DNA from: Oscillospiraceae bacterium | GTDB lineage: Bacteria > Bacillota > Clostridia > Oscillospirales > Oscillospiraceae | Assembly (NCBI GenBank): GCA_015067615.1 | Contig: SVMD01000006.1 | Location: 58,715-122,714, forward strand | Length of the DNA: 64,000 bases | Direction of reading: 5' to 3' | Part shown: positions 1,546 through 53,249 of the stretch, piece by piece | How positions within the stretch are numbered: position 1 is the first letter of the stretch | Layout: each line of letters begins with the position of its first letter | Program-made: the position numbers and the translations under genes | Notes under the pieces: generated by a model | Databases searched by the model: none | What the model was told of the DNA's origin: nothing | What the model saw: the letters and a program-made list of their open reading frames with translations, nothing else

Positions 1546-1574
1546 TTGCATTTTTCCACCACCCGTGGTATAAT
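1546..1574 (+). promoter_or_regulatory. sigma-A promoter of the aro operon
   Basis: -35 TTGCAT (1546-1551), a 17-bp spacer, and a perfect -10 TATAAT (1569-1574) preceded by TG one base upstream (extended -10). The predicted transcript start near 1581 is about 25 nt before the leader-peptide ATG and about 190 nt before aroF. Confidence 0.8.
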
Positions 1575-1604
1575 GTCCGCAGCTACTGAACACGGAGGCA
1601 AATT

Positions 1605-1667
1605 ATGACTCATAATTTCTTTGCTGCATACTTTAGCTTCTATTACTTTTTTGGTGATAAAAAGTAA
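1605..1667 (+). CDS. Phe/Tyr-rich leader peptide of the aro operon (20 aa)
   Basis: A 20-codon ORF starts at ATG 1605, six bases after a GGAGG (1594-1598), and ends in tandem in-frame stops TAA TAG. Nine of the 20 codons are aromatic: Phe at 5, 6, 10, 12, 15 and 16, and Tyr at 9, 13 and 14, with FSFYYFF as the dense core. It lies between the operon promoter and an intrinsic terminator directly ahead of aroF. That is the arrangement of ribosome-mediated attenuators such as the proteobacterial pheA leader. The peptide itself probably has no function; its translation would sense charged tRNA-Phe and tRNA-Tyr. This role is inferred from composition, ribosome binding site, position and the competing RNA structures. 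Confidence 0.85.
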   Translation: MTHNFFAAYFSFYYFFGDKK

Positions 1668-1736
1668 TAGCGATTTGTGCTGCAAAGGGATTTTCAGAAG
1701 CCCCAAAACGTAATTTTCAGACGCTGCACGAATTGC
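1640..1736 (+). promoter_or_regulatory. aro attenuator: pause hairpin and antiterminator
   Basis: Two alternative structures precede the terminator. First, 1640-1651 and 1659-1670 are perfect 12-bp complements with a 7-nt loop, spanning the Tyr-Tyr-Phe-Phe codons and the stop codon. Second, 1670-1680 pairs with 1726-1736 over 11 bp including two G-U pairs, extendable by two pairs beyond one mismatch. The second pairing uses the 5' arm of the terminator, so the two exclude each other. A ribosome stalled at the aromatic codons leaves 1670-1683 free and favours read-through. A ribosome at the stop codon would cover that segment and favour termination. The model is inferred; no folding energies were computed. 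Confidence 0.68.
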
Positions 1737-1758
1737 CCGTGCGGCGTCTTATTTTTTT
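1720..1758 (+). terminator. Intrinsic terminator (attenuator) ahead of aroF
   Basis: An 11-bp stem (1720-1730 with 1738-1748, one G-U pair) has a 7-nt loop and is followed by TTATTTTTTT. It ends one base before the aroF ribosome binding site, so it must be bypassed for the operon to be expressed. Confidence 0.85.
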
Positions 1759-1773
1759 AGGAGATGACTTTTT

Positions 1774-2775
1774 ATGATCGCAGTTTTAAAGCATGGTACC
1801 ACCCCCGATCAGACCGCTCACCTGGTGAACTGGCTGAAGGCCATGAATCTGGATGTGCATATTTCCGAGGGCACCGAGGTCACGGTTCTGGGCCTCATCG
1901 GCGACACCAGCCGGGTGGATATGGACCTGCTGAAATCCCTGGAAATCGTGGCCGATGTGAAGCGGGTCTCCGAGCCCTACAAGCAGGCCAACCGGAAGTT
2001 CCACCCCAAGGACACCATCATCCAGTGCGGTGATGTGCGTATCGGCGGCGGCTATTTTGCCATGATCGCCGGTCCCTGCAGCGTGGAATCCGAGGAGCAG
2101 ATCATTGAGGTTGCCAAGGCCGTGAAGGAATCCGGCGCCAACATCCTCCGGGGCGGCGCCTTTAAGCCCCGGACCTCCCCCTACGCCTTCCAGGGCATGA
2201 AGGGCGAGGGCATCAAGCTGCTGCTGGAAGCCAAGAAGGAAACCGGCCTGCCCATCGTCACGGAGATCATGAACATCTCCACCCTGGACCTGTTCAGCGA
2301 TGTGGACATCATCCAGGTGGGCGCCAGAAATATGCAGAACTTTGACCTGCTGAAGGAGCTGGGCAAGACCAGAAAGCCCATTCTCTTAAAGCGGGGTCTT
2401 GCCAATACCATCCAGGAGCTGCTGATGTCCGCCGAGTATATCATGAGCGAGGGCAATGAGAACATCATCCTCTGCGAGCGCGGCATCCGTACCTTCGAGA
2501 CCGCCACCCGGAACACCCTGGACCTGGCAGCGGTTTCCGTCCTCCATGAGCTTTCCCACCTGCCTGTGGTGGTGGATCCCAGCCACGCCACCGGCAAGGC
2601 CAAGCTGGTTGCTCCCATGGCCTGTGCTGCCGCCGCTGCCAACTGCGACGGTCTGATGATCGAGGTTCACAACAATCCCTCCTGCGCCCTCTGTGACGGT
2701 GCCCAGAGCCTGACCCCCCACCAGTTTGACGAGCTGGCCCACCGGGTCCGTCTTGTCCGGGAGGCAGTGAGATGA
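1774..2775 (+). CDS. aroF: 3-deoxy-7-phosphoheptulonate (DAHP) synthase, type I-beta
   Basis: Condenses phosphoenolpyruvate and erythrose-4-phosphate to DAHP, the committed shikimate step. The 333-residue protein has an N-terminal ferredoxin-like domain (about residues 1-70) typical of Thermotoga-type I-beta enzymes, where it mediates Tyr/Phe inhibition. The barrel follows, with AGPCSVES (99-106), RGGAFKPRTSPY (126-137), LLKRG and DPSHATGKAKLV. The start ATG follows AGGAG by 10 bases and lies directly behind the attenuator terminator. It is the first structural gene of the operon and overlaps tyrA by ATGA. Feedback control by aromatic amino acids is inferred from domain architecture. Confidence 0.96.
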   Translation: MIAVLKHGTTPDQTAHLVNWLKAMNLDVHISEGTEVTVLGLIGDTSRVDMDLLKSLEIVADVKRVSEPYKQANRKFHPKDTIIQCGDVRIGGGYFAMIAGPCSVESEEQIIEVAKAVKESGANILRGGAFKPRTSPYAFQGMKGEGIKLLLEAKKETGLPIVTEIMNISTLDLFSDVDIIQVGARNMQNFDLLKELGKTRKPILLKRGLANTIQELLMSAEYIMSEGNENIILCERGIRTFETATRNTLDLAAVSVLHELSHLPVVVDPSHATGKAKLVAPMACAAAAANCDGLMIEVHNNPSCALCDGAQSLTPHQFDELAHRVRLVREAVR

Positions 2776-3602
2776 ACGTCGGTATTTTGGGTCTTGGCCT
2801 CATCGGCGGATCTCTCGCCAGAGCCTACGCCCTGGAGGGTCACACGGTCTATGCCGCGGAAAAGGATGAATCCATGCTCTCCTTTGCCATGCTGGCAGGC
2901 GCCGTTCACGGAAAGCTGGACGAAAACACCATCCCTCAGTGCGATCTGATTCTGCTGGCCATCTACCCGGAAGGCAGCGCCGGGTGGCTTGAAAAGCACG
3001 CCCCGCTGGTAAGCCGTGACGCACTGGTCATGGACTGCTGCGGCGTGAAGCGGGAGATCTGTTCCCGGTGCTTCCCCCTGTCGGAACAATATGGTTTTAC
3101 CTTCGTAGGCGGCCATCCCATGGCCGGATCCCAGTTCTCCGGCTTCAAGTACAGCCGGGCAAACCTCTTCGAAAATCAGCCCATGGTGATGGTACCCCCG
3201 GTATTTGACGATATCCAGCTGCTGGACCGGGCGAAGGAAGCACTGAAGCCCTGCCGCTTCGGCTCCTTCTCCGTGACCACTGCGGAAAAGCATGATAAAA
3301 TGATCGCCTTTACCTCCCAGATGCCCCATATCCTGAGCAATGGATTCATCAAATCCCCCACCGCGCTGGAGCATAAGGGCTTCTCCGCCGGCAGCTACCG
3401 GGACCTGACGAGAGTTGCCTGGCTGAACCCCCAGATGTGGGCGGAGCTGTTTCTGGAAAACCAGGACTTTGTACTGGAAGAGCTGGATTTTTATATTCAA
3501 AGTCTCAGCGCCTACCGGGAGGCCATCGCAAAGAGCGATATGAACACCCTGATCACCCTTCTGGAGGAAGGCAAACGCCGCAAGGAGGAGGTGGACGGAT
3601 GA
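2772..3602 (+). CDS. tyrA: Prephenate dehydrogenase
   Basis: Oxidatively decarboxylates prephenate to 4-hydroxyphenylpyruvate, the tyrosine branch. The 276-residue protein starts with a Rossmann nucleotide-binding motif GLGLIGGS (6-13) and carries the family signature GGHPMAGS (113-120), then TSQMPHILSN and a helical C-terminal dimerisation domain. There is no C-terminal ACT domain, unlike many Gram-positive TyrA proteins, so allosteric Tyr control of this protein is not evident. Its ATG lies in the aroF stop (ATGA overlap), and it overlaps aroB the same way. Confidence 0.94.
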   Translation: MNVGILGLGLIGGSLARAYALEGHTVYAAEKDESMLSFAMLAGAVHGKLDENTIPQCDLILLAIYPEGSAGWLEKHAPLVSRDALVMDCCGVKREICSRCFPLSEQYGFTFVGGHPMAGSQFSGFKYSRANLFENQPMVMVPPVFDDIQLLDRAKEALKPCRFGSFSVTTAEKHDKMIAFTSQMPHILSNGFIKSPTALEHKGFSAGSYRDLTRVAWLNPQMWAELFLENQDFVLEELDFYIQSLSAYREAIAKSDMNTLITLLEEGKRRKEEVDG

Positions 3603-4633
3603 AAACCGTCACCGTAAACGCATCCAAATCCTACGATATCAAAATCGGTCCCGGTTTGCTCGGTTCGCTGGGCACTGAGGCCGCCAAGCTGGGCAAGGCC
3701 AAAAAGATCGCCATTGTCAGCGAGACCAATGTTTACCCCCTCTACGGCGCCGCGGCAGAAAAGAGCCTGCGAGATGCCGGATTCGAGGTTTCCTCCTTCG
3801 TGTTCCCCACCGGAGAGGAAAGCAAGTGTGCAGCAACCTATCTGGAACTGCTGAATTTCCTGGCAGACAACAAGCTGACCCGGACGGACCTGATCGTGGC
3901 CCTGGGCGGCGGTGTTGTGGGTGACCTGGCAGGCTTCGCCGCAGCTACCTATCTGCGGGGCATCCGGTTTATTCAGATCCCCACCACACTGCTGGCAGCG
4001 GTGGATTCCAGCGTCGGCGGCAAGACCGCCATCGACCTGAGCGCGGGAAAAAACCTGGTGGGTGCCTTCTGGCAGCCGAGCCTGGTGCTCTGCGATACCG
4101 ATACTCTGAATACCCTGCCCTATGACATTTTCATTGACGGCTGTGCCGAGGTCATTAAATACGGCATTCTCTACGATGAAGCATTTTTCACATATCTTGA
4201 GTCCATCGGACCGGACTTTGACCGGGAAGCGGTCATCGCCCGGTGTGTGGAGATGAAGCGGGACGTGGTCATGGAGGACGAATTCGATACCGGCGCCCGG
4301 ATGAAGCTGAATCTGGGCCACACCATCGGCCACGGTGTGGAGGCGAGCTCCAATTTTACCCTCTCCCATGGAAAATCCGTGGCCATCGGCATGGCAATCG
4401 TCAGCCGGGCTTCCCACTGTCCCGAAAATGACAGAATCATTGGTATTTTGAAGAAATTCGGCCTGCCCACGGCCACTGAAACCGATGCCGATACGCTTCT
4501 CCGGTACGCCCTGTCCGACAAAAAGCGCAGCGGCGGCACGGTGAATCTGATCATCCCCGAAAAAATCGGCGACTGCGCCATCGTTCCCACCCCGGTGGAA
4601 AAAATCAAATCCTTTATCGAAGAAGGTCTTTGA
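3599..4633 (+). CDS. aroB: 3-dehydroquinate synthase
   Basis: Converts DAHP to 3-dehydroquinate using NAD and a divalent metal. The 344-residue protein has the family NAD/substrate signature GGGVVGD (103-109), then IPTTLLAAVDSSVGGKTAID, KNLVGAFWQP and the metal ligands in EVIKYG and GHTIGHGVE. The start is the ATG at 3599, which overlaps the tyrA stop (ATGA) and follows AAGGAGGAGG. An in-frame ATG at 3437 would add 54 proline/arginine/glycine-rich residues lying inside tyrA and is rejected. Confidence 0.96.
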   Translation: MKTVTVNASKSYDIKIGPGLLGSLGTEAAKLGKAKKIAIVSETNVYPLYGAAAEKSLRDAGFEVSSFVFPTGEESKCAATYLELLNFLADNKLTRTDLIVALGGGVVGDLAGFAAATYLRGIRFIQIPTTLLAAVDSSVGGKTAIDLSAGKNLVGAFWQPSLVLCDTDTLNTLPYDIFIDGCAEVIKYGILYDEAFFTYLESIGPDFDREAVIARCVEMKRDVVMEDEFDTGARMKLNLGHTIGHGVEASSNFTLSHGKSVAIGMAIVSRASHCPENDRIIGILKKFGLPTATETDADTLLRYALSDKKRSGGTVNLIIPEKIGDCAIVPTPVEKIKSFIEEGL

Positions 4634-4634
4634 T

Positions 4635-5804
4635 ATGGACATTACCATCCATCCCCGGCTTCTCCGGGGAGATATCCAAATCATCCCCTCCAAATCCCAG
4701 GCTCACAGATTACTAATCTGTGCCGCCTTTGCCAACAACGAAACCACGCTGGTCTGTCCCGAGACCAACCGGGATATCGAAGCCACGGTAGATTGTCTGA
4801 ACGCTCTGGGATCAAATATTCAGCGGACAGAAAACGGATATTCCATTGATCCTGTTTCCGTCATTCCCGAAACTGCGAGGCTTAACTGCTGTGAAAGCGG
4901 CTCCACCCTGCGCTTTATGCTCCCCATCGTGGGTGCTCTGGGTGTGGATGCCACGTTCCAAATGGCGGGACGGCTGCCCCAGAGGCCCCTGTCCCCTCTC
5001 TGGGAGGAGATGGAACGGATGGGATGCATCCTTTCCCGGCCCACAGCGGATACCATCCGCTGTCAGGGTAAGCTGAAATCCGGAGAATATGTGATTGACG
5101 GCGGCGTGTCCAGCCAGTTTATTACAGGCCTGCTTTTTGCCACAGCCCTGATGGACGGAAAAAGCAAGATCACCATCACAGGCAATCTGGAATCCAAGCC
5201 CTATGTGGATATGACCGAGCAGGCACTGAAGCTGTTTTCTGCCCCTGATTTCCACACCCCCGGATATATTGAGGTGGAGGGCGACTGGAGCAACGGAGCT
5301 TTCTTCCTGGCTGCAAAAGCCCTGGGAAGTGGGTTGAACGTCCTGGGACTGAATACTCAGTCCGCCCAGGGTGACCGGGCAGTTGTGGAAATCCTGAAGC
5401 AGATGGAGGCCGGAACACCAACCGTATCCGCAAAGGATATTCCCGACCTGGTGCCCATCCTGTCCGTAGTCGCTGCTGCAAAACATGGTGCAGTTTTCAC
5501 CGACATCCGGCGGCTGCGATTGAAAGAATCCGACCGGGTGGCCTCCACCATTGCCATGATCGAAAGTCTGGGCGGAAAGGCCGAAGCAGACGAAAATACC
5601 CTGAAAATTTACGGCACCGGGCTGACCGGGGGCACGGTGGACGCAGTGAACGACCACCGGATCGCCATGGCAGCCGCCATCGCTGCTACGGCCTGCCAGC
5701 AGAATGTGACCATTCTGGGAGCGGAATGTGTGAAAAAGAGTTATCCCAGGTTCTGGGAGGAATACGCCCGGTTAGGAGGCAATTATGAGCAGCACCTACG
5801 GTGA
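4635..5804 (+). CDS. aroA: 3-phosphoshikimate 1-carboxyvinyltransferase (EPSP synthase)
   Basis: Transfers enolpyruvyl from PEP to shikimate-3-phosphate. The 389-residue protein is at the short end of the family (about 420-445). It has PSKSQAHR (18-25), ESGSTLRFM, SSQFITGLLFA, GDWSNGAFFLAAKAL, the RLRLKESDR signature and a DHRIAMA block near the C-terminus. The start is one base after the aroB stop, with a GAAGG ribosome site inside aroB. It ends 20 bases inside aroC, so the two are probably translationally coupled. PSKSQAHR resembles but does not exactly match the usual SKS.T.R pattern; drug sensitivity class cannot be judged from this. Confidence 0.95.
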   Translation: MDITIHPRLLRGDIQIIPSKSQAHRLLICAAFANNETTLVCPETNRDIEATVDCLNALGSNIQRTENGYSIDPVSVIPETARLNCCESGSTLRFMLPIVGALGVDATFQMAGRLPQRPLSPLWEEMERMGCILSRPTADTIRCQGKLKSGEYVIDGGVSSQFITGLLFATALMDGKSKITITGNLESKPYVDMTEQALKLFSAPDFHTPGYIEVEGDWSNGAFFLAAKALGSGLNVLGLNTQSAQGDRAVVEILKQMEAGTPTVSAKDIPDLVPILSVVAAAKHGAVFTDIRRLRLKESDRVASTIAMIESLGGKAEADENTLKIYGTGLTGGTVDAVNDHRIAMAAAIAATACQQNVTILGAECVKKSYPRFWEEYARLGGNYEQHLR

Positions 5805-6873
5805 AAATTTGAAACTCTCCATTTTCGGCCAGTCCCACGGCCCGGCCATCGGCATGACCCTGGACGGTATTCCCGCGGGACTGAACGTGGATTTCGATAA
5901 ATTACAGCAGTTCCTGAACCGCCGGGCACCGGGACAGAACGACTGGTCCACCCCCCGAAAAGAGGAGGATAAGCCCGAATTTCTGGCAGGAATCCTGGAC
6001 GGCTACACCTGCGGCGCACCCATTGCCGCAGTGATTCACAACAAAAACACCCGCTCCGGAGACTATGAGAATCTCAAGGACTGCCCCCGGCCCGGTCACG
6101 CGGACTACACCGCCCAAATTAAGTACGGTGGTTTTCAGGATGCCGCCGGCGGCGGCCATTTCTCCGGACGGCTTACCGCGCCTCTCTGCATCGCAGGTGG
6201 ATTGTGCAAGCAGTGGCTGGAGGAAATGGGCATTCAGATTGGCGCCCATATTCTCGCCATCGGCGAATGTGGGGATCAGTATTTTGACCCCATGGATCCG
6301 GAACTTGAGTCCGTCGGCAAAGATTTCCCGGTGCTGGACCCGGAAGCGGGCAGTGCCATGCGGGATTTCATCGCCCAGGCCAGGGCCGCCGGAGACAGTG
6401 TGGGCGGCATCATCGAATGTGCCGTGACCGGTCTTCCTGCCGGAATCGGTGAGCCCATGTTCGGCGGCGTGGAGAGCAGGATCGCCCAGATCGTCTACGG
6501 AATTCCCGCCGTGAAGGGTGTGGAATTCGGTATCGGCTTTGACTGCGCCTGTGTACCCGGAAGCCAGAGCAACGATGATTTCGCCATTGTGGACGGAAAG
6601 ATCGTAACCCAGACCAACAACGCAGGCGGTATTTTGGGCGGCATCACCAACGGCATGCCCGTGATCTTCACCACCGCCTTCAAAGCCACCCCTTCCATTG
6701 CCTGCGGACAAAACAGTGTCTCTCTGAGCTTAATGGAAGAAAAGGAGCTGCGCATCAAGGGCCGTCATGATCCCTGCATCGTCCCCCGGGCGGTGCCTGT
6801 GGTGGAAGCGGCGGCGGCCATTGCCATTTATGACTTAATCCTGGGCAATACCCAGACAAACAGGAGGAAATAA
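5785..6873 (+). CDS. aroC: Chorismate synthase
   Basis: Forms chorismate from EPSP using reduced FMN. The 362-residue protein starts SSTYGENLKLSIFGQSHG, with the invariant GQSHG at 15-19. RRAPGQN, the DYENLKDCPRPGHAD region, AGGGHFSGRLTAP and DPCIVPRAVPVVEA are the expected family blocks. The ATG has GGAGG seven bases upstream and lies inside the 3' end of aroA. pheA follows after two bases. Length and motifs are normal. Confidence 0.97.
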   Translation: MSSTYGENLKLSIFGQSHGPAIGMTLDGIPAGLNVDFDKLQQFLNRRAPGQNDWSTPRKEEDKPEFLAGILDGYTCGAPIAAVIHNKNTRSGDYENLKDCPRPGHADYTAQIKYGGFQDAAGGGHFSGRLTAPLCIAGGLCKQWLEEMGIQIGAHILAIGECGDQYFDPMDPELESVGKDFPVLDPEAGSAMRDFIAQARAAGDSVGGIIECAVTGLPAGIGEPMFGGVESRIAQIVYGIPAVKGVEFGIGFDCACVPGSQSNDDFAIVDGKIVTQTNNAGGILGGITNGMPVIFTTAFKATPSIACGQNSVSLSLMEEKELRIKGRHDPCIVPRAVPVVEAAAAIAIYDLILGNTQTNRRK

Positions 6874-6875
6874 CC

Positions 6876-8018
6876 ATGGATTTAAAGGAACTTCGAAGCG
6901 AAATTGACGTTATTGACGACGAGCTAGTTCGCCTGTTTGGCAAGCGCATGGACATCGCCGCCCAAATCGCCGATTACAAAAAGGAAAACGGACTTCCCAT
7001 TCTGGTTCCCGCCAGAGAGCGGGAAAAGCTGGCGGACGTGGCGGAAAAAGCCGGTCCCGAGATGGCAAACTATACCCGGGTGCTGTACTCCATGCTCTTC
7101 GAGCTGAGCCGCAGCTATCAGTCTAAGCGCACCTCCACCCTGACTCAGCTGTATCACGACATCACCGCCTCCATTGAGCACACCCCCAAGCTCTTCCCCC
7201 AGCAGGCCATGGTGGCCTGTCAGGGCGTGGAGGGGGCCTACTCCCAGATCGCCTGCGAGAAGATCTTCAAGTCCCCCTTCATCATGTATTTCAAGAACTT
7301 CGAGGGCGTGTTCAGTGCCATCGACAAGGGCCTGTGCCAGTACGGCATCCTGCCCATCGAGAATTCCACCGCCGGCTCCGTGAAGAAGGTCTATGATCTG
7401 ATGATCTCCCACAATTTCTCCATCGTCCGGACTTTCCGGATGAAGGTGGACCACAATCTGCTGGTGAACAAGGGCACGAAGCTCGCTGACATCAAGGAGA
7501 TCTACTCCCACGAGCAGGCCATCAACCAGTGCAGCGAGTTTTTGCAGACCCTCCCCGGTGTCACCGTCACCGCTGTGGCCAACACCGCCGTGGCCTCCGA
7601 GATGGTTGCCAAGTCCGGCCGTAAGGACGTGGCTGCCCTGAGCAGCCGGGCATGCGCGGAGCTCTACGGCCTGTCCTGCCTGAAGCCCTCTGTTCAGGAT
7701 AAGGACAACAACCACACCCGTTTCATCTGCATTGCCAAGAATCTGGAGATCTACCCCGGCGCCGACAAGACCAGCATCATGATGATCCTGCCCCACAAGC
7801 CCGGCGCTCTGTACAAGGTCATGGCACGGCTCTACACCCTGGGCATCAACGTGACCAAGCTGGAATCCCGGCCCATCCCCGACCGGGAGTTCGAGTTCAT
7901 GTTCTATTTCGATCTGGAAACCTCCATCTATTCCGAGGAATTCGTGCAGCTCATGTGCGAGCTGGACGAGCTGTGTGAAGAATTCAAGTACCTGGGCAGC
8001 TACAGCGAGGTGGTTTGA
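6876..8018 (+). CDS. pheA: Bifunctional chorismate mutase / prephenate dehydratase (P-protein)
   Basis: Converts chorismate to prephenate and on to phenylpyruvate. Residues 1 to about 90 form an AroQ-class chorismate mutase (LRSEIDVIDDELVRLFGKRMD, then KR/E helices). About 105-285 is the dehydratase domain, with GVEGAYSQIA, PIENSTAGSV and a late TRFICIAK. About 295-375 is an ACT domain with PGALYKVM and ESRP at 330-333, which in known P-proteins marks the phenylalanine effector site. Feedback inhibition by Phe is therefore likely. An AGGAGG precedes the ATG, and the stop overlaps the aroEK start (TGATG). Confidence 0.95.
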   Translation: MDLKELRSEIDVIDDELVRLFGKRMDIAAQIADYKKENGLPILVPAREREKLADVAEKAGPEMANYTRVLYSMLFELSRSYQSKRTSTLTQLYHDITASIEHTPKLFPQQAMVACQGVEGAYSQIACEKIFKSPFIMYFKNFEGVFSAIDKGLCQYGILPIENSTAGSVKKVYDLMISHNFSIVRTFRMKVDHNLLVNKGTKLADIKEIYSHEQAINQCSEFLQTLPGVTVTAVANTAVASEMVAKSGRKDVAALSSRACAELYGLSCLKPSVQDKDNNHTRFICIAKNLEIYPGADKTSIMMILPHKPGALYKVMARLYTLGINVTKLESRPIPDREFEFMFYFDLETSIYSEEFVQLMCELDELCEEFKYLGSYSEVV

Positions 8019-9241
8019 TGAAAACCGGGCTTTTGGGCCGGAAGCTGGGACACAGCTACTCCCCCCAGATCCATGCCTACCTGGGCGATTACAGCTACGA
8101 ACTCTTTGAGCGGGAACCAGAGGATGTGGAACGCTTTCTGAAAGAGGGAGACTTTTCCGCTATCAACGTGACCATCCCCTATAAGAAAACCGTCATGCCC
8201 TACTGCCGCCTGACTGACACCGCCAAATACATGGGCAGCGTCAACACCATCGTCCGGCAGCCGGACGGAACGCTTCTGGGCCACAACACGGACTACTTTG
8301 GTTTTACCTCCATGGTTCAGAAATCCGGCCTGGATGTAAAAGGAAAGAAATGTCTGGTCCTGGGCTCCGGCGGTGCCTCCGTCACCGCCGTGGCGGTGCT
8401 GAAGGAGATGGGTGCCCATGTGGTGGTGATCTCCCGCAGCGGAGAAAACAACTACGATAACCTGCATCTGCACACCGATGCTGCCGTCATCTGCAACTGC
8501 ACCCCGGTGGGCATGTACCCGAAAAACGGTGTGTCCCCGGTGGATCTGGACCTGTTCCCCCGGCTGGAGGGCGTGCTGGATATGATCTACAACCCCGCCC
8601 GGACGCAACTCCTCATGGACGCGGAAAACCGTGGTCTTATCGCGGAAAACGGTCTGTGGATGCTGGTGGCCCAGGCGAAGGAGGCTGCGGAATGGTTCCT
8701 GAACAAGCAGTTGCCCGACAGTCTGATCCAATTTGTCTACGACAAAATGCGCCGGCAGATGGAAAACATCATCCTCATCGGCATGCCCGGCTGCGGAAAG
8801 TCCACCGTGGGCAAGCTCCTTGCGGAAAGCTTGGGAAAGACCTTCGTGGACGCGGATTCGGAACTGGAAAAAGTCTACGGTGTGGATATCCCCACAGTCT
8901 TTGCCACGGAAGGCGAAGCTGGCTTCCGGGAAAAGGAAACCGCAGTTCTGGCTGACCTTGGCAAACGGGCCGGGCTGATCATCGCCACCGGCGGCGGCTG
9001 CGTCACCCGGGAGCGGAACTACCCACTGCTGCATCAGAACGGCACGGTTTTCTGGCTGACGCGGGACCTGGACAAGCTGCCCAGCGACGGCCGCCCCCTG
9101 TCCCGGATCACCAAAATGGAAGATATGTACCGTATCCGCAAGCCCCTGTATGAAGACTTTGCCGACCACAGCATCGAAAACGACGCAGCTGTGGGAGATA
9201 CGGTGGCACAAATCATTGCAAAATGGGAGGAAGTCAGATGA
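8018..9241 (+). CDS. aroE-aroK: Fused shikimate dehydrogenase / shikimate kinase
   Basis: One 407-residue reading frame joins two consecutive shikimate steps. Residues 1 to about 240 are AroE-like: SYSP (13-16), NVTIPYKK with the catalytic lysine K56, NTD at 90-92, the nucleotide motif GSGGA (116-120), CTPVGMYP and a final GLWMLVAQA. Residues about 249-407 are AroK-like: Walker A GMPGCGKST (255-263), DAD (278-280), FREKE and an ATGGGC motif. No stop or frameshift separates them. The ATG at 8018 overlaps the pheA stop; a TTG one codon earlier is less likely. The fusion may channel shikimate; that is inference. Confidence 0.93.
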   Translation: MKTGLLGRKLGHSYSPQIHAYLGDYSYELFEREPEDVERFLKEGDFSAINVTIPYKKTVMPYCRLTDTAKYMGSVNTIVRQPDGTLLGHNTDYFGFTSMVQKSGLDVKGKKCLVLGSGGASVTAVAVLKEMGAHVVVISRSGENNYDNLHLHTDAAVICNCTPVGMYPKNGVSPVDLDLFPRLEGVLDMIYNPARTQLLMDAENRGLIAENGLWMLVAQAKEAAEWFLNKQLPDSLIQFVYDKMRRQMENIILIGMPGCGKSTVGKLLAESLGKTFVDADSELEKVYGVDIPTVFATEGEAGFREKETAVLADLGKRAGLIIATGGGCVTRERNYPLLHQNGTVFWLTRDLDKLPSDGRPLSRITKMEDMYRIRKPLYEDFADHSIENDAAVGDTVAQIIAKWEEVR

Positions 9242-9672
9242 AGATTTTAGTCATCAACGGCCCAAATATCAATATGCTGGGCATCCGGGAGCCGGGCATC
9301 TACGGCAGCAACACCTTTGCCGATCTGCTGGCCCTGCTGGAACAGACTGCCCGGGAAGAGAATATCGAAATCGAGCAGTACCAGAGCAATCACGAGGGCT
9401 GCCTGGTGGACAAGATCCAGGAGAGCTTCGGCAAGGTGGATGGAATCGTCATCAATCCTGCCGCCTACACCCACACCTCCGTTGCCATTCTGGACGCCCT
9501 GAAGGCGGTTTCCATTCCCGCGGTGGAGGTCCATATTTCCGATGTGGACAGCCGGGAGCCTTTCCGGCAGATCTCCTATGCCGGTCTTGCCTGCCAAAAG
9601 ACCATCAAGGGTCAGGGCTTGCAGGGATACCGTCAGGCCATTTTGTATCTGAAAGATTTCCTGCAAAAATAG
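9238..9672 (+). CDS. aroQ: 3-dehydroquinate dehydratase, type II
   Basis: Dehydrates 3-dehydroquinate to 3-dehydroshikimate by the dodecameric type II mechanism. The 144-residue protein shows INGPNINMLG (6-15) followed by EPGIYG with the catalytic tyrosine (Y22), QSNHEG, NPAAYTHTS and VEVHIS. The ATG overlaps the aroEK stop (ATGA) and follows GGGAGG; a TTG-to-GTG-like start 15 bases earlier is not needed. It is the last gene of the operon and supplies the dehydratase otherwise provided by AroD. No strong intrinsic terminator follows before the next promoter. Confidence 0.95.
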   Translation: MKILVINGPNINMLGIREPGIYGSNTFADLLALLEQTAREENIEIEQYQSNHEGCLVDKIQESFGKVDGIVINPAAYTHTSVAILDALKAVSIPAVEVHISDVDSREPFRQISYAGLACQKTIKGQGLQGYRQAILYLKDFLQK

Positions 9673-9778: not shown

Positions 9779-10990
9779 ATGATTCAAAGATCTGATCGCA
9801 TGGAGCAAGTTCACTCTGACATCCGCGGCGAGCTGTTCCGCCGTTCTCTGAAAATGCAGCAGGAGGGCATCAATGTCCTGAAGCTGAACACCGGCAATCC
9901 CGCAACCTTCGGCTTTACCATGGCCGATTCCATCCGCAACGCGCTGGAAGGCAACGAGCATAAGGCCGTTGGTTACTGCGACTTCCAGGGTATGCCCGCC
10001 GCCCGCCGGGCCATCTGCGACTACCACACCGGCAAGGGCATCCAGGGTATCACCCCCGACGATATCTTCATCGGCAACGGCGTCAGTGAGGTTGTCAACT
10101 TCGCTCTGATGCCCCTGCTGAACCCCGGTGACGAGGTCCTGGTTCCCACTCCCGTGTACACCCTGTGGAGCAACACCATCCTGCTGGCCTCCGCCAAGCC
10201 TGTGTACTACCGCTGTGACGAGGCTTCCGAGTGGAACCCCGATATCGCCGACATCAAGGCCAAGATCACCTCCAAGACCAAGGCCATTGTCATCATCAAC
10301 CCCAATAACCCCACCGGCGCCCTGTACCCTGAAGAGGTTCTGAACCAGATTCTTGATGTGGCCCGTGAGCATAACCTGATTGTCTTCTCCGACGAGATCT
10401 ATGACCGGATGGTAATGGATGACCGCAAGCACGTCTCCACCGCCTCCCTGGCTCCCGATCTGGTGGTCATCACCATGAACGGCCTGAGTAAGTCCCATGT
10501 GCTCTGCGGCTTCCGTGTGGGCTGGATGGTCATTTCCGGTCCCCGGGAAAAGACCACCGAGTACCGTCAGGGCATCGTGCAGCTGACCTCCCTGCGTCTT
10601 TGCTCCAACGCCCTGGCCCAGCTGGTCATTCCTGCCGCTATGGAGGACAATGAGACTCCCTTCTCCATGTGCCGTCCCGGCGGCCGTGTCTACGAGCAGA
10701 GAAAGGCCACCTGCGATGTGCTGGATCAGATCGACGGCATCTCCTATGTGAAGAACAAGGCCGCCTTCTACCTGTTCCCCAAGCTGGACGTGAAGAAGTT
10801 CAACATCACCTCCGACAAGCAGTTCGCCTCCGACCTGCTGGATGCCTGCCACATTCTGATTGTTCCCGGCAGTGGCTTCGACTGGCCCGAGCATGACCAT
10901 TTCCGCATCGTCATGCTGCCCAAGCCCGAAGAGCTTACTGAGGCTATGACCCGGATGGGCAACTTCCTGGACGGCTATCGTCAGAAGTAA
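9779..10990 (+). CDS. alaA: Pyridoxal-phosphate aminotransferase, AlaA/AlaT-like
   Basis: A fold-type I aminotransferase of 403 residues. It strongly resembles E. coli AlaA, which transfers amino groups between glutamate and pyruvate: LNTGNPATFGF near the N-terminus, GNGVSEVVNFAL, IINPNNPTGALY, SDEIYDRMV, PLP lysine K238 in NGLSKS, a C-terminal FRIVMLPKPEEL and final GYRQK. The ATG follows AAAAGGAG. Its place after the aro operon would also suit transamination of aromatic keto acids, which some members of this class perform, so the exact substrate is open. A GC-rich hairpin follows. Confidence 0.85.
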   Translation: MIQRSDRMEQVHSDIRGELFRRSLKMQQEGINVLKLNTGNPATFGFTMADSIRNALEGNEHKAVGYCDFQGMPAARRAICDYHTGKGIQGITPDDIFIGNGVSEVVNFALMPLLNPGDEVLVPTPVYTLWSNTILLASAKPVYYRCDEASEWNPDIADIKAKITSKTKAIVIINPNNPTGALYPEEVLNQILDVAREHNLIVFSDEIYDRMVMDDRKHVSTASLAPDLVVITMNGLSKSHVLCGFRVGWMVISGPREKTTEYRQGIVQLTSLRLCSNALAQLVIPAAMEDNETPFSMCRPGGRVYEQRKATCDVLDQIDGISYVKNKAAFYLFPKLDVKKFNITSDKQFASDLLDACHILIVPGSGFDWPEHDHFRIVMLPKPEELTEAMTRMGNFLDGYRQK

Positions 10991-11004: not shown

Positions 11005-11030
11005 GCCGCGGAGCCAACCGGCTCCGCGGC
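11005..11030 (+). terminator. GC-rich hairpin after the aminotransferase gene
   Basis: A perfect 11-bp stem (11005-11015 with 11020-11030) has a 4-nt loop. Only a short T-run (TTTT) follows after several bases, so it is a likely but not ideal intrinsic terminator. Confidence 0.6.
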
Positions 11031-52674: not shown

Positions 52675-52780
52675 GGCTTTTCGCCTCCTTTTCATGGCAC
52701 CATTGTAGCGGAAATGGCCCCAAAAGGCAACCAAGCGGACAAAACATTTGCGCAACTGAATGTAACATTATCAAATTGAC

Positions 52781-52815
52781 TGAAAAAAGCACCGCAGGAT
52801 TTCCTGCGGTGCTTT
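52781..52815 (-). terminator. Intrinsic terminator of the PPC-domain gene
   Basis: A 14-bp stem (52786-52799 with 52802-52815) has a two-base centre and is followed on the minus strand by TTTTTTCA. It lies five bases after the stop. Confidence 0.88.
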
Positions 52816-52820
52816 GTTCC

Positions 52821-53249
52821 TTATTCGTTTCTGAAGATCAGCTCATCGTAGCCCGTTTCCGTGTCTGCCTCCACCCCGAAGCCGACGCCGGGCAGTTCCA
52901 TCAGAACCAGCTCGCAGGTGGTATTGACGATGCAGCCCGGACAGAGGTGGCCGCCGATGGTGCTTAGGTCCTCCTTCGACAGTGCAATGTGGATGTGACA
53001 GCGTTGAGCACTAACGGTACCGTTCAGGCTCACGATCTCGCAGTGGTCCGTGATCTCCCGGATATTCACGCCGCTGGCGTCCCGGACTCGGCCCTTCAGG
53101 ATGCAGCCTACGCCGGAGAGCACCACGCCGGAGCGGATGTTCTTCTCCCGGCAGACCTGTTTGATGGATTCCATCAGGTCCTCACCACGCTTCAACCGAA
53201 TACAGTGGCACACCATGCTGCCCGATCCGGTAACGATTCTGTGTTCCAT
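52821..53249 (-). CDS. PPC-domain (DUF296) protein
   Basis: A 142-residue protein that is a single PPC/DUF296 domain. Seen are the start VCHCIRLKRGEDLMESIKQVC, the central SGVVLSGVGCILKGRVRD and the core CHIHIALSKEDLSTIGGHLCPGCIV with clustered His (HIH...H) that can bind zinc. ELVLMELPGVGFGVEADTETGYDEL closes the fold. The bacterial proteins are trimers often called DNA-binding by analogy with plant AHL proteins; a DNA role is not shown here. It lies 15 bases after polC on the same strand and may be read from the polC operon, with its own terminator. Confidence 0.87.
   Translation of the reverse strand: MEHRIVTGSGSMVCHCIRLKRGEDLMESIKQVCREKNIRSGVVLSGVGCILKGRVRDASGVNIREITDHCEIVSLNGTVSAQRCHIHIALSKEDLSTIGGHLCPGCIVNTTCELVLMELPGVGFGVEADTETGYDELIFRNE

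Follow-up and report, generated by a model that had tools for sequence, protein, structure and literature searches.

What controls the long aromatic operon of this bacterium, and does the control respond to one amino acid or to two? The window, that is, the whole stretch of 64,000 nucleotides analysed here, comes from an Oscillospiraceae bacterium, and a short open reading frame (ORF) rich in Phe and Tyr codons lies upstream of its aroF gene. The preliminary description of this DNA had proposed control by attenuation; this mechanism is very likely right, and the comparative tests are in its favour. We put at about 90% the probability that positions 1546-1773, judged by sequence and modelled folding, are a ribosome-mediated transcription attenuator, which would adjust expression of aroF-tyrA-aroB-aroA-aroC-pheA-aroE/K-aroQ to how much charged tRNA-Phe and tRNA-Tyr is available. 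The ORF, the complementary segments, and their conservation and coevolution are read from the sequences themselves; that the element senses amino acids, and that both amino acids matter, is likely. The features are collected in Table 1.

Table 1. Features of the leader region and of the operon behind it (positions in the window)
Feature	Position	Strand	Basis
Promoter, extended -10: TTGCAT - 17 nt - (TGG)TATAAT	1546..1574	+	sequence reading; genus comparison
Shine-Dalgarno GGAGG of leader ORF	1594..1598	+	sequence reading
Leader ORF MTHNFFAAYFSFYYFFGDKK, 20 codons, 6 Phe and 3 Tyr	1605..1667	+	sequence; 30/30 genus loci and L190
Hairpin 1 core over Tyr-Tyr-Phe-Phe codons, 1640-1651 with 1659-1670	1640..1670	+	folding; comparison
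Extended base of hairpin 1, 1620-1637 with 1670-1686, bulged	1620..1686	+	minimum-energy fold
Segment 2, antiterminator 5' strand (GCGAUUUGUGC)	1670..1680	+	swap tests, footprint geometry
Antiterminator 3' strand, common to terminator 5' arm and loop	1726..1736	+	swap tests
Intrinsic terminator, 12-bp stem 1719-1730/1738-1749, U-tract to 1758	1719..1758	+	terminator scan; comparison
aroF, DAHP synthase, first controlled gene	1774..2775	+	NF006421, TIGR01361
tyrA, prephenate dehydrogenase	2772..3602	+	below curated cut-offs, best E 6e-43
aroB, 3-dehydroquinate synthase	3599..4633	+	profile search; start chosen by analyst
aroA, EPSP synthase	4635..5804	+	below curated cut-off, E 9.4e-78
aroC, chorismate synthase	5785..6873	+	profile search
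pheA, chorismate mutase - prephenate dehydratase	6876..8018	+	domain matches, below cut-offs
aroE - shikimate kinase fusion	8015..9241	+	domain matches, below cut-offs
aroQ, type II 3-dehydroquinate dehydratase	9223..9672	+	profile search
Aminotransferase	9779..10990	+	profile search; family match below cut-offs

The first eight genes of the operon overlap or are spaced by at most 2 nt. The aminotransferase starts 106 nt past aroQ and has a strong terminator-like hairpin behind it (11005-11030); it is likely the last gene of the transcription unit. The AroE and shikimate kinase domains are joined in a single ORF of 408 aa (8015-9241). On the other side of the leader, a divergent helicase-like ORF (MEYLKNLNPEQLEA..., putatively PcrA/UvrD-like by eye) occupies 1-1407 of the minus strand and runs towards the window start, and a promoter scan gives a promoter-like site near it (1475-1447, minus strand).

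Is the leader built as an attenuator? Read from the sequence, the -10 hexamer of its promoter (TATAAT, 1569-1574) is perfect and of the extended TGN type (TG at 1566-1567), whereas the -35 hexamer (TTGCAT, 1546-1551) matches three of the six consensus bases, so that the term 'consensus promoter' used earlier suits the -10 and not the -35. The promoter scan did not list this promoter because of these 3/6 matches. The ORF with its six Phe and three Tyr codons is present as described; it ends with TAA (1665-1667), followed by a tandem second stop, TAG (1668-1670). Attenuators of this class combine a short ORF, provided with a start and a ribosome site, in which codons for the end products of the operon form a run, with an intrinsic terminator between the leader ORF and the first gene, and both are found here. 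After hairpin 1 comes the segment GCGAUUUGUGCUGC, then a spacer and then the terminator, and the Shine-Dalgarno sequence of aroF (1759-1763) directly follows the end of the U-tract.

The three RNA structures named in the preliminary description are also where it had placed them. The 5' arm of hairpin 1 consists of the Tyr-Tyr-Phe-Phe codons and its 3' arm of Lys codons and the tandem stops; all 12 pairs are possible, and 10 of them form in the minimum-energy fold, the outer two bases pairing elsewhere. The antiterminator has 11 of 11 pairs, two of them G-U, and the terminator stem shares bases with it, which makes the two mutually exclusive. As a whole, the 193-nt leader folds at -59.2 kcal/mol (z = -4.96), and none of 200 shuffles is as good. 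One weak point had been suspected, namely that hairpin 1 overlaps the antiterminator by a single base and control would rest mainly on the stop codon. This weakness disappears in the predicted fold, where a lengthened hairpin 1 brings 9 of the 11 antiterminator bases into pairs with leader codons; a ribosome at the stop would also cover most antiterminator bases. In masked folding this extended base is not equally stable among the relatives. Segment 2 falls partly within the footprint assumed for a ribosome that has reached the stop codon; an overlap with this footprint is found in 81 of 94 leaders, and in all 94 the terminator begins beyond it.

How would the ribosome then decide between the two structures? 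The leaders were folded with an assumed ribosome footprint masked, at the stage before the 3' arm of the terminator emerges. For this leader the antiterminator has a probability of 0.05 with no ribosome and 0.00 with a ribosome at the stop, and of 1.00, 0.76 and 1.00 when the ribosome stalls at the first core Tyr, the last core Phe and the first Phe; these values barely shift for ribosome edges from 9 to 13 nt. A control resting on the stop codon alone is rejected for this leader in view of the extended helix; in the model, stalls at the early Phe also free segment 2. Among 30 leaders of the genus, the antiterminator exceeds 0.5 with the ribosome at the first core codon in 24, at the last in 18, at the early codon in 30, at the stop in 6 and with no ribosome in 16. 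The modelled switching thus fails in some relatives, as the antiterminator does not win at the first core codon in 6/30 and at the last in 12/30. The rule for the attenuator class is followed by this leader in the model, and among the genus leaders 24/30 obey its control-codon part and 24/30 its stop part. The folding check proposed earlier, with and without ribosome masks, therefore gives the expected switch for this leader and for most, not all, relatives. A conserved 'off' state without translation finds no support across the genus, as the antiterminator wins without a ribosome in 16/30. In the complete leader at equilibrium, the terminator wins in 30/30 with no ribosome, in 30/30 with a ribosome at the stop and in 29/30 under core stalls; therefore the switch must be kinetic.

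From these folds a scenario can be drawn. When Phe and Tyr are plentiful, the ribosome would reach the stop (1665) and cover about 1670-1676, so blocking the antiterminator; the terminator would then form and RNA polymerase would halt near 1758. A shortage of charged tRNA-Phe or of charged tRNA-Tyr would hold the ribosome at one of the corresponding codons and hairpin 1 would be kept from sequestering segment 2, and the freed 1670-1680 could pair with the emerging 1726-1736, so that no terminator forms and the operon is transcribed. With no translation of the leader, segment 2 would be tied up in the long hairpin 1, and this species would terminate by default. The control would be kinetic, settled before the 3' arm of the terminator is synthesized.

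Is the element kept in the genus? Sixty genomes were searched for the genus set; 34 same-genus genomes, host included, have an aroF match and three more have none. The element is present in 31 of the 34, namely at the 30 loci of the main set and at L190, which belongs to the same genus and stands outside the main 30. In 30/30 loci of the main set a Phe/Tyr-rich ORF lies 157-192 nt upstream of aroF, and an ORF of 10-45 codons preceded by a Shine-Dalgarno sequence and holding at least six Phe/Tyr codons is found in all of them, while the same filter passes 104 of 2520 dinucleotide shuffles and 3 of 126 reverse complements. The same promoter type (TTGC..., -10 with at least 5/6 matches) stands before all 30, with a spacer of 17 nt in 29 and of 16 nt in L025. 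Segment 2 (UUUGUGCUGC) is strongly conserved among the genus loci. In L026 a Tyr codon has changed to Ser, and the base paired with it has changed as well (A-U to C-G). Two loci of the same genus, L191 (430-626) and L192 (1-200, minus strand), keep promoter and terminator before aroF, and leader ORF, hairpin 1 and segment 2 were looked for there and are absent, as in natural deletions; their AroF proteins are only 66 and 63% identical. At L193, also of the genus, no leader was seen before aroF.

There is a further question, whether the leader reads Phe and Tyr or Phe alone. We compiled 102 leaders, of which 30 come from the genus, 49 were chosen by AroF similarity (from the best 80 loci among the matches listed) and 23 were found by model search and are not independent; one genome, G020, enters the count twice (L027, L112). 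Of their 2563 residues, 8 are Trp. The average number of Phe plus Tyr per leader is 8.70 in the reading frame and 3.08 and 3.17 in the other two. In the densest 12 codons there are 430 TTY and 377 TAY against 18 TCY and 12 TGY, and since TTY and TAY (807) far exceed TCY and TGY (30), the two alternatives at the second codon position, the sites appear to require 'Phe or Tyr'. The alignment check for conserved aromatic codons proposed beforehand thus finds a Phe/Tyr run kept in a single frame. In many distant leaders the ORF runs on through segment 2, e.g. with KVKAIRAA or SDLCC, and the ribosome itself would therefore traverse segment 2.

One might suppose an attenuator for Phe only, as in the classical precedent of enteric pheA, with Tyr codons that are carried by the pairing of hairpin 1 and have little regulatory weight. 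Phe is indeed the commonest residue, with 491 of the 887 Phe and Tyr codons, and the TAT TAC codons sit in the paired core and are nearly invariant in the genus. However, Tyr makes up the other 396, both residues occur in 101 of the 102 leaders, and Tyr is present outside the hairpin core too. In the third core pair, A-U and U-A replace each other across 70 aligned sequences (31 vs 27), which would exchange a Tyr and a Phe codon, and tyrA belongs to the operon. We therefore regard the Phe-only explanation as unlikely, and keep the attenuator that would read both amino acids.

Do the helices themselves evolve as pairs? In the 70 sequences, 94.3% of the cells of hairpin 1 and terminator are paired, and changes on both sides are seen at 22 of 24 pairs (10/12 in hairpin 1, 12/12 in the terminator). 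There are 267 double-changed cells versus 69.9 in shuffles, and the covariation score is 0.453 versus 0.158 in shuffles and at most 0.094 when slid, on an alignment that was fitted to the model and so favours it. The compensatory changes expected in both stems are thus found. For the antiterminator, the column-wise covariation in the genus is unconvincing (57 of 500 shuffles reach the score, and 22 of 500 the paired cells), an outcome that indels in the terminator loop partly explain, and we therefore relied on a swap test with its controls. Within the genus, exchanging the partner between species costs 2.2 kcal/mol, and none of 20,000 permutations matches the native pairing. Outside the 30, the test covered 75 of 96 loci, those with a terminator found, and gave -13.00 for native and -9.97 (sd 0.27) for swapped partners, a cost of 3.0 kcal/mol that is again matched by 0 of 20,000. 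As controls, the reversed sequence gives z -1.7 (238/5000 as good) and a region further upstream z +0.7. With one locus per cluster the native z is -12.0 and the reversed control shows a mild excess (z -2.2, 84/5000), figures to be read with the fact that swap tests correct only partly for relatedness. By these comparisons, segment 2 coevolves with the arm and loop of the terminator, which is telling because the terminator does not by itself constrain the part that pairs with its loop. A conserved antiterminator that excludes the terminator, the third mark of the attenuator class, is thus indicated by the swap tests, the column counts within the genus alone being weak.

These results also bear on two other explanations. 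The first is that the upstream ORF works by translational coupling, reinitiation or protection of the mRNA and that the terminator is incidental; short leader ORFs near a gene have been proposed to raise downstream translation by reinitiation (PMC4833913). Here the leader stop lies 106 nt upstream of aroF with a strong terminator in between, and neither the double-sided changes at every terminator pair nor the coevolution of segment 2 is needed for reinitiation, which makes this explanation very unlikely. The second is that a ligand or a protein binds hairpin 1 or segment 2, as in a riboswitch or a TRAP-like system, the ORF being a by-product of U-rich RNA. Such a site would fit with the strong conservation of segment 2 within the genus. 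However, outside the 30 genus loci segment 2 varies jointly with its partner, and the Phe/Tyr excess is confined to the frame that has a start codon and a Shine-Dalgarno sequence. Besides, no Rfam family (release 15) matches the window at gathering scores, and the five matches in 1500-1800 at E up to 10 (E 4.6 to 7.7) include no leader family and all lie far below the gathering score. We consider binding of a ligand or protein very unlikely, and reject T-box, TRAP-like or riboswitch control at this place for lack of a meaningful Rfam match. The attenuator read by a translating ribosome remains our preferred reading.

Then how does this leader stand beside the T-boxes of the same organism? The T-box model RF00230 finds no match in the window, though it gives 13 matches in the host genome, 9 of them above the cut-off; one is before pheS, and one below the cut-off is before trpB. 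Given the T-box at pheS, there are likely two readers of tRNA-Phe charging, a T-box that serves the synthetase and the ribosome that serves biosynthesis. The T-boxes of the host genome, G000 (C25, C20, C9, C11 and others; L141-L153), stand before valS-, ileS-, metG-, thrS- and alaS-like genes, as judged by eye, and others before pheS and trpB, by profile, and before transport and further genes. The earlier statement that Firmicutes usually use T-boxes holds for the host genome (pheS, trpB), but leader-peptide attenuators have already been reported in Firmicutes.

How far does the element extend beyond the genus? In other families of the order we inspected 15 genomes with 16 aroF loci, setting aside the second copies of G046 and G058 and the fragments of G044. 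A crude filter (at least six Phe/Tyr in up to 50 codons) passes 13 of the 16, of which L198, L206 and L208 are unconvincing by eye, and R1, a covariance model built from the 30 genus leaders (alignment A2), matches 8 of the 16 at E <= 0.01. Named genomes were also scanned with AroF; of the 80 most similar loci among the matches listed, 7 are repeats, and the 73 others include a few of the same genus or close kin, and L040 is from the genome of L190. Among these 73 of the best 80 listed, a leader with at least six Phe/Tyr is found in 49, a terminator in 55 and both in 44, and 24 have no leader by the filter. The record titles with a leader, as deposited, include Oscillospiraceae, Ruminococcus, Oscillibacter, Lachnospiraceae and Emergencia, together with a few odd titles of metagenome-assembled genomes (Treponema, Lentisphaerae). 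On the best 80 listed loci plus the window (855 kb), R1 matches 43 loci and the window at E <= 3.3e-6, 7 of the 43 being repeats of training sequences; all 44 matches are on the sense strand and end 4-132 nt upstream of aroF. A second R1 match in the window (52679-52824, E 0.057) is taken as chance. Could T-boxes substitute where the leader is lacking? No T-box reaches the gathering score in 27 such loci of relatives (24 without a dense Phe/Tyr run and 3 doubtful), and substitution is ruled out at that score in these loci.

Searches of the order, class and phylum, whose filters miss weak matches and of which the best matches alone were inspected, gave R1 matches at E <= 0.001 in 64 of 295 genomes and 46 of 148 genera of the order, and, for the class and the phylum, matches of the broader model R2 in 40 of 391 and 9 of 299 genomes, respectively. 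The gene behind the 30 best matches of the order is aroF in 27 and TrpB-like in 3; behind 36 further loci of class and phylum it is aroF in 29, pheA in 1, and another or none at weak scores in 6. At L131 aroF and then tyrA follow the leader match. R2 matches before other genes (L178, L180, L181, L185, L186, L189; E 7.7e-6 to 5e-4) are taken as chance. Some members deviate in their codons or in the gene they precede. At L161 (1480-1670) a Phe/Tyr leader of the family stands upstream of pheA and not of aroF. In L134, L138 and L139 (about 1400-1800) the RNA model matches before the TrpB-like gene (NF009057 by profile in L138, by resemblance in L134 and L139), and these leaders have one Trp codon amid Tyr and Phe. 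The aroF leader of L058 (about 1650-1750) has two Trp codons (MKNSNCTANKIWYWYYFAMNDSKVSLQCTEL), unlike nearly all others. The preliminary description had called a Phe and Tyr leader ahead of both branches a distinct design; this arrangement is present, though it is no one-off, as it recurs before aroF across order and class.

What is new in it? In enteric pheA, a leader ORF with runs of control codons, a hairpin over these codons, an antiterminator and a terminator precede the structural gene. The layout of the clostridial leader is the same, but the enteric one has Phe codons and controls pheA alone, in Proteobacteria, whereas the clostridial leader has codons of both kinds and precedes the genes of the common pathway and of both branches. 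T-boxes, too, sense tRNA charging and end in a terminator and antiterminator, as proposed for the clostridial leader, but they bind the tRNA directly, without a leader peptide. Leader families for Phe, Trp, His and others exist in Rfam. By description, the closest published element found is the uORFC-13-1 motif, which is presented as having 24 representatives in Acholeplasma and environmental sequences, all upstream of aroF, with a possible promoter, a ribosome-binding site, an upstream ORF with at least one Phe codon, a further base-paired part and an intrinsic terminator, and with control by Phe incorporation proposed (PMC8632094). The window likewise has an upstream ORF with Phe codons and then a terminator upstream of aroF; the motif differs, in a comparison by description and within the section devoted to it, by its restriction to Acholeplasma and environmental sequences and by naming Phe and not Tyr. 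Some of its environmental members might belong to the clostridial family.

Other leader peptides in Firmicutes are the Leu-rich attenuator peptide of S. aureus ilv-leu, backed by selected mutations and reporters (PMC5794164), which differs by its Leu (and Ile) codons and its non-aromatic operon, and the His leader peptides of hisS*/hisZ in bacilli, predicted by sequence, where others use a T-box (PMC2965389), which differ by histidine and by serving aminoacyl-tRNA synthetase paralogues. The word 'aroF' is absent from the main text of a later survey of 50 genomes (PMC11109978), and a survey of Actinobacteria, in its accessible part, gives no such structures for Phe or Tyr (PMC1262725). In the literature searched, which covered few subscription papers, no attenuator of aroF by Phe and Tyr is listed for Clostridia. 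The ribosome-mediated attenuation is of the classical kind and its setting is new; since the mechanism is known, the novelty lies in the family, its two-amino-acid specificity and its clostridial spread, all of which appear to be new within the literature searched. We apparently deal with a widespread two-amino-acid RNA family, and an Rfam entry would be merited because no family of release 15 matches the copy in the window.

What may this mean for the Clostridia? Textbooks present leader-peptide attenuation with the enteric bacteria, and for Firmicutes they turn to T-boxes, TRAP and riboswitches. We think it rather probable that this unnamed RNA family is the standard aromatic control of much of Clostridia, a ribosome-read OR gate in which a shortage of Phe-tRNA or Tyr-tRNA, and not of Trp-tRNA, would open the shikimate trunk and both branches, beside T-boxes for tRNA-Phe charging (pheS) and for Trp in the same cell, and that it has now and then been recruited by pheA and, with a Trp codon added, by a TrpB-like gene. 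If Phe/Tyr attenuators do stand before the whole aromatic operon in many Clostridia, the picture would have to be revised for many anaerobes. A single genome would also offer, in a system found in nature, both a T-box and a ribosome as sensors of tRNA charging, and it would become possible to test how two amino acids are integrated by the same leader.
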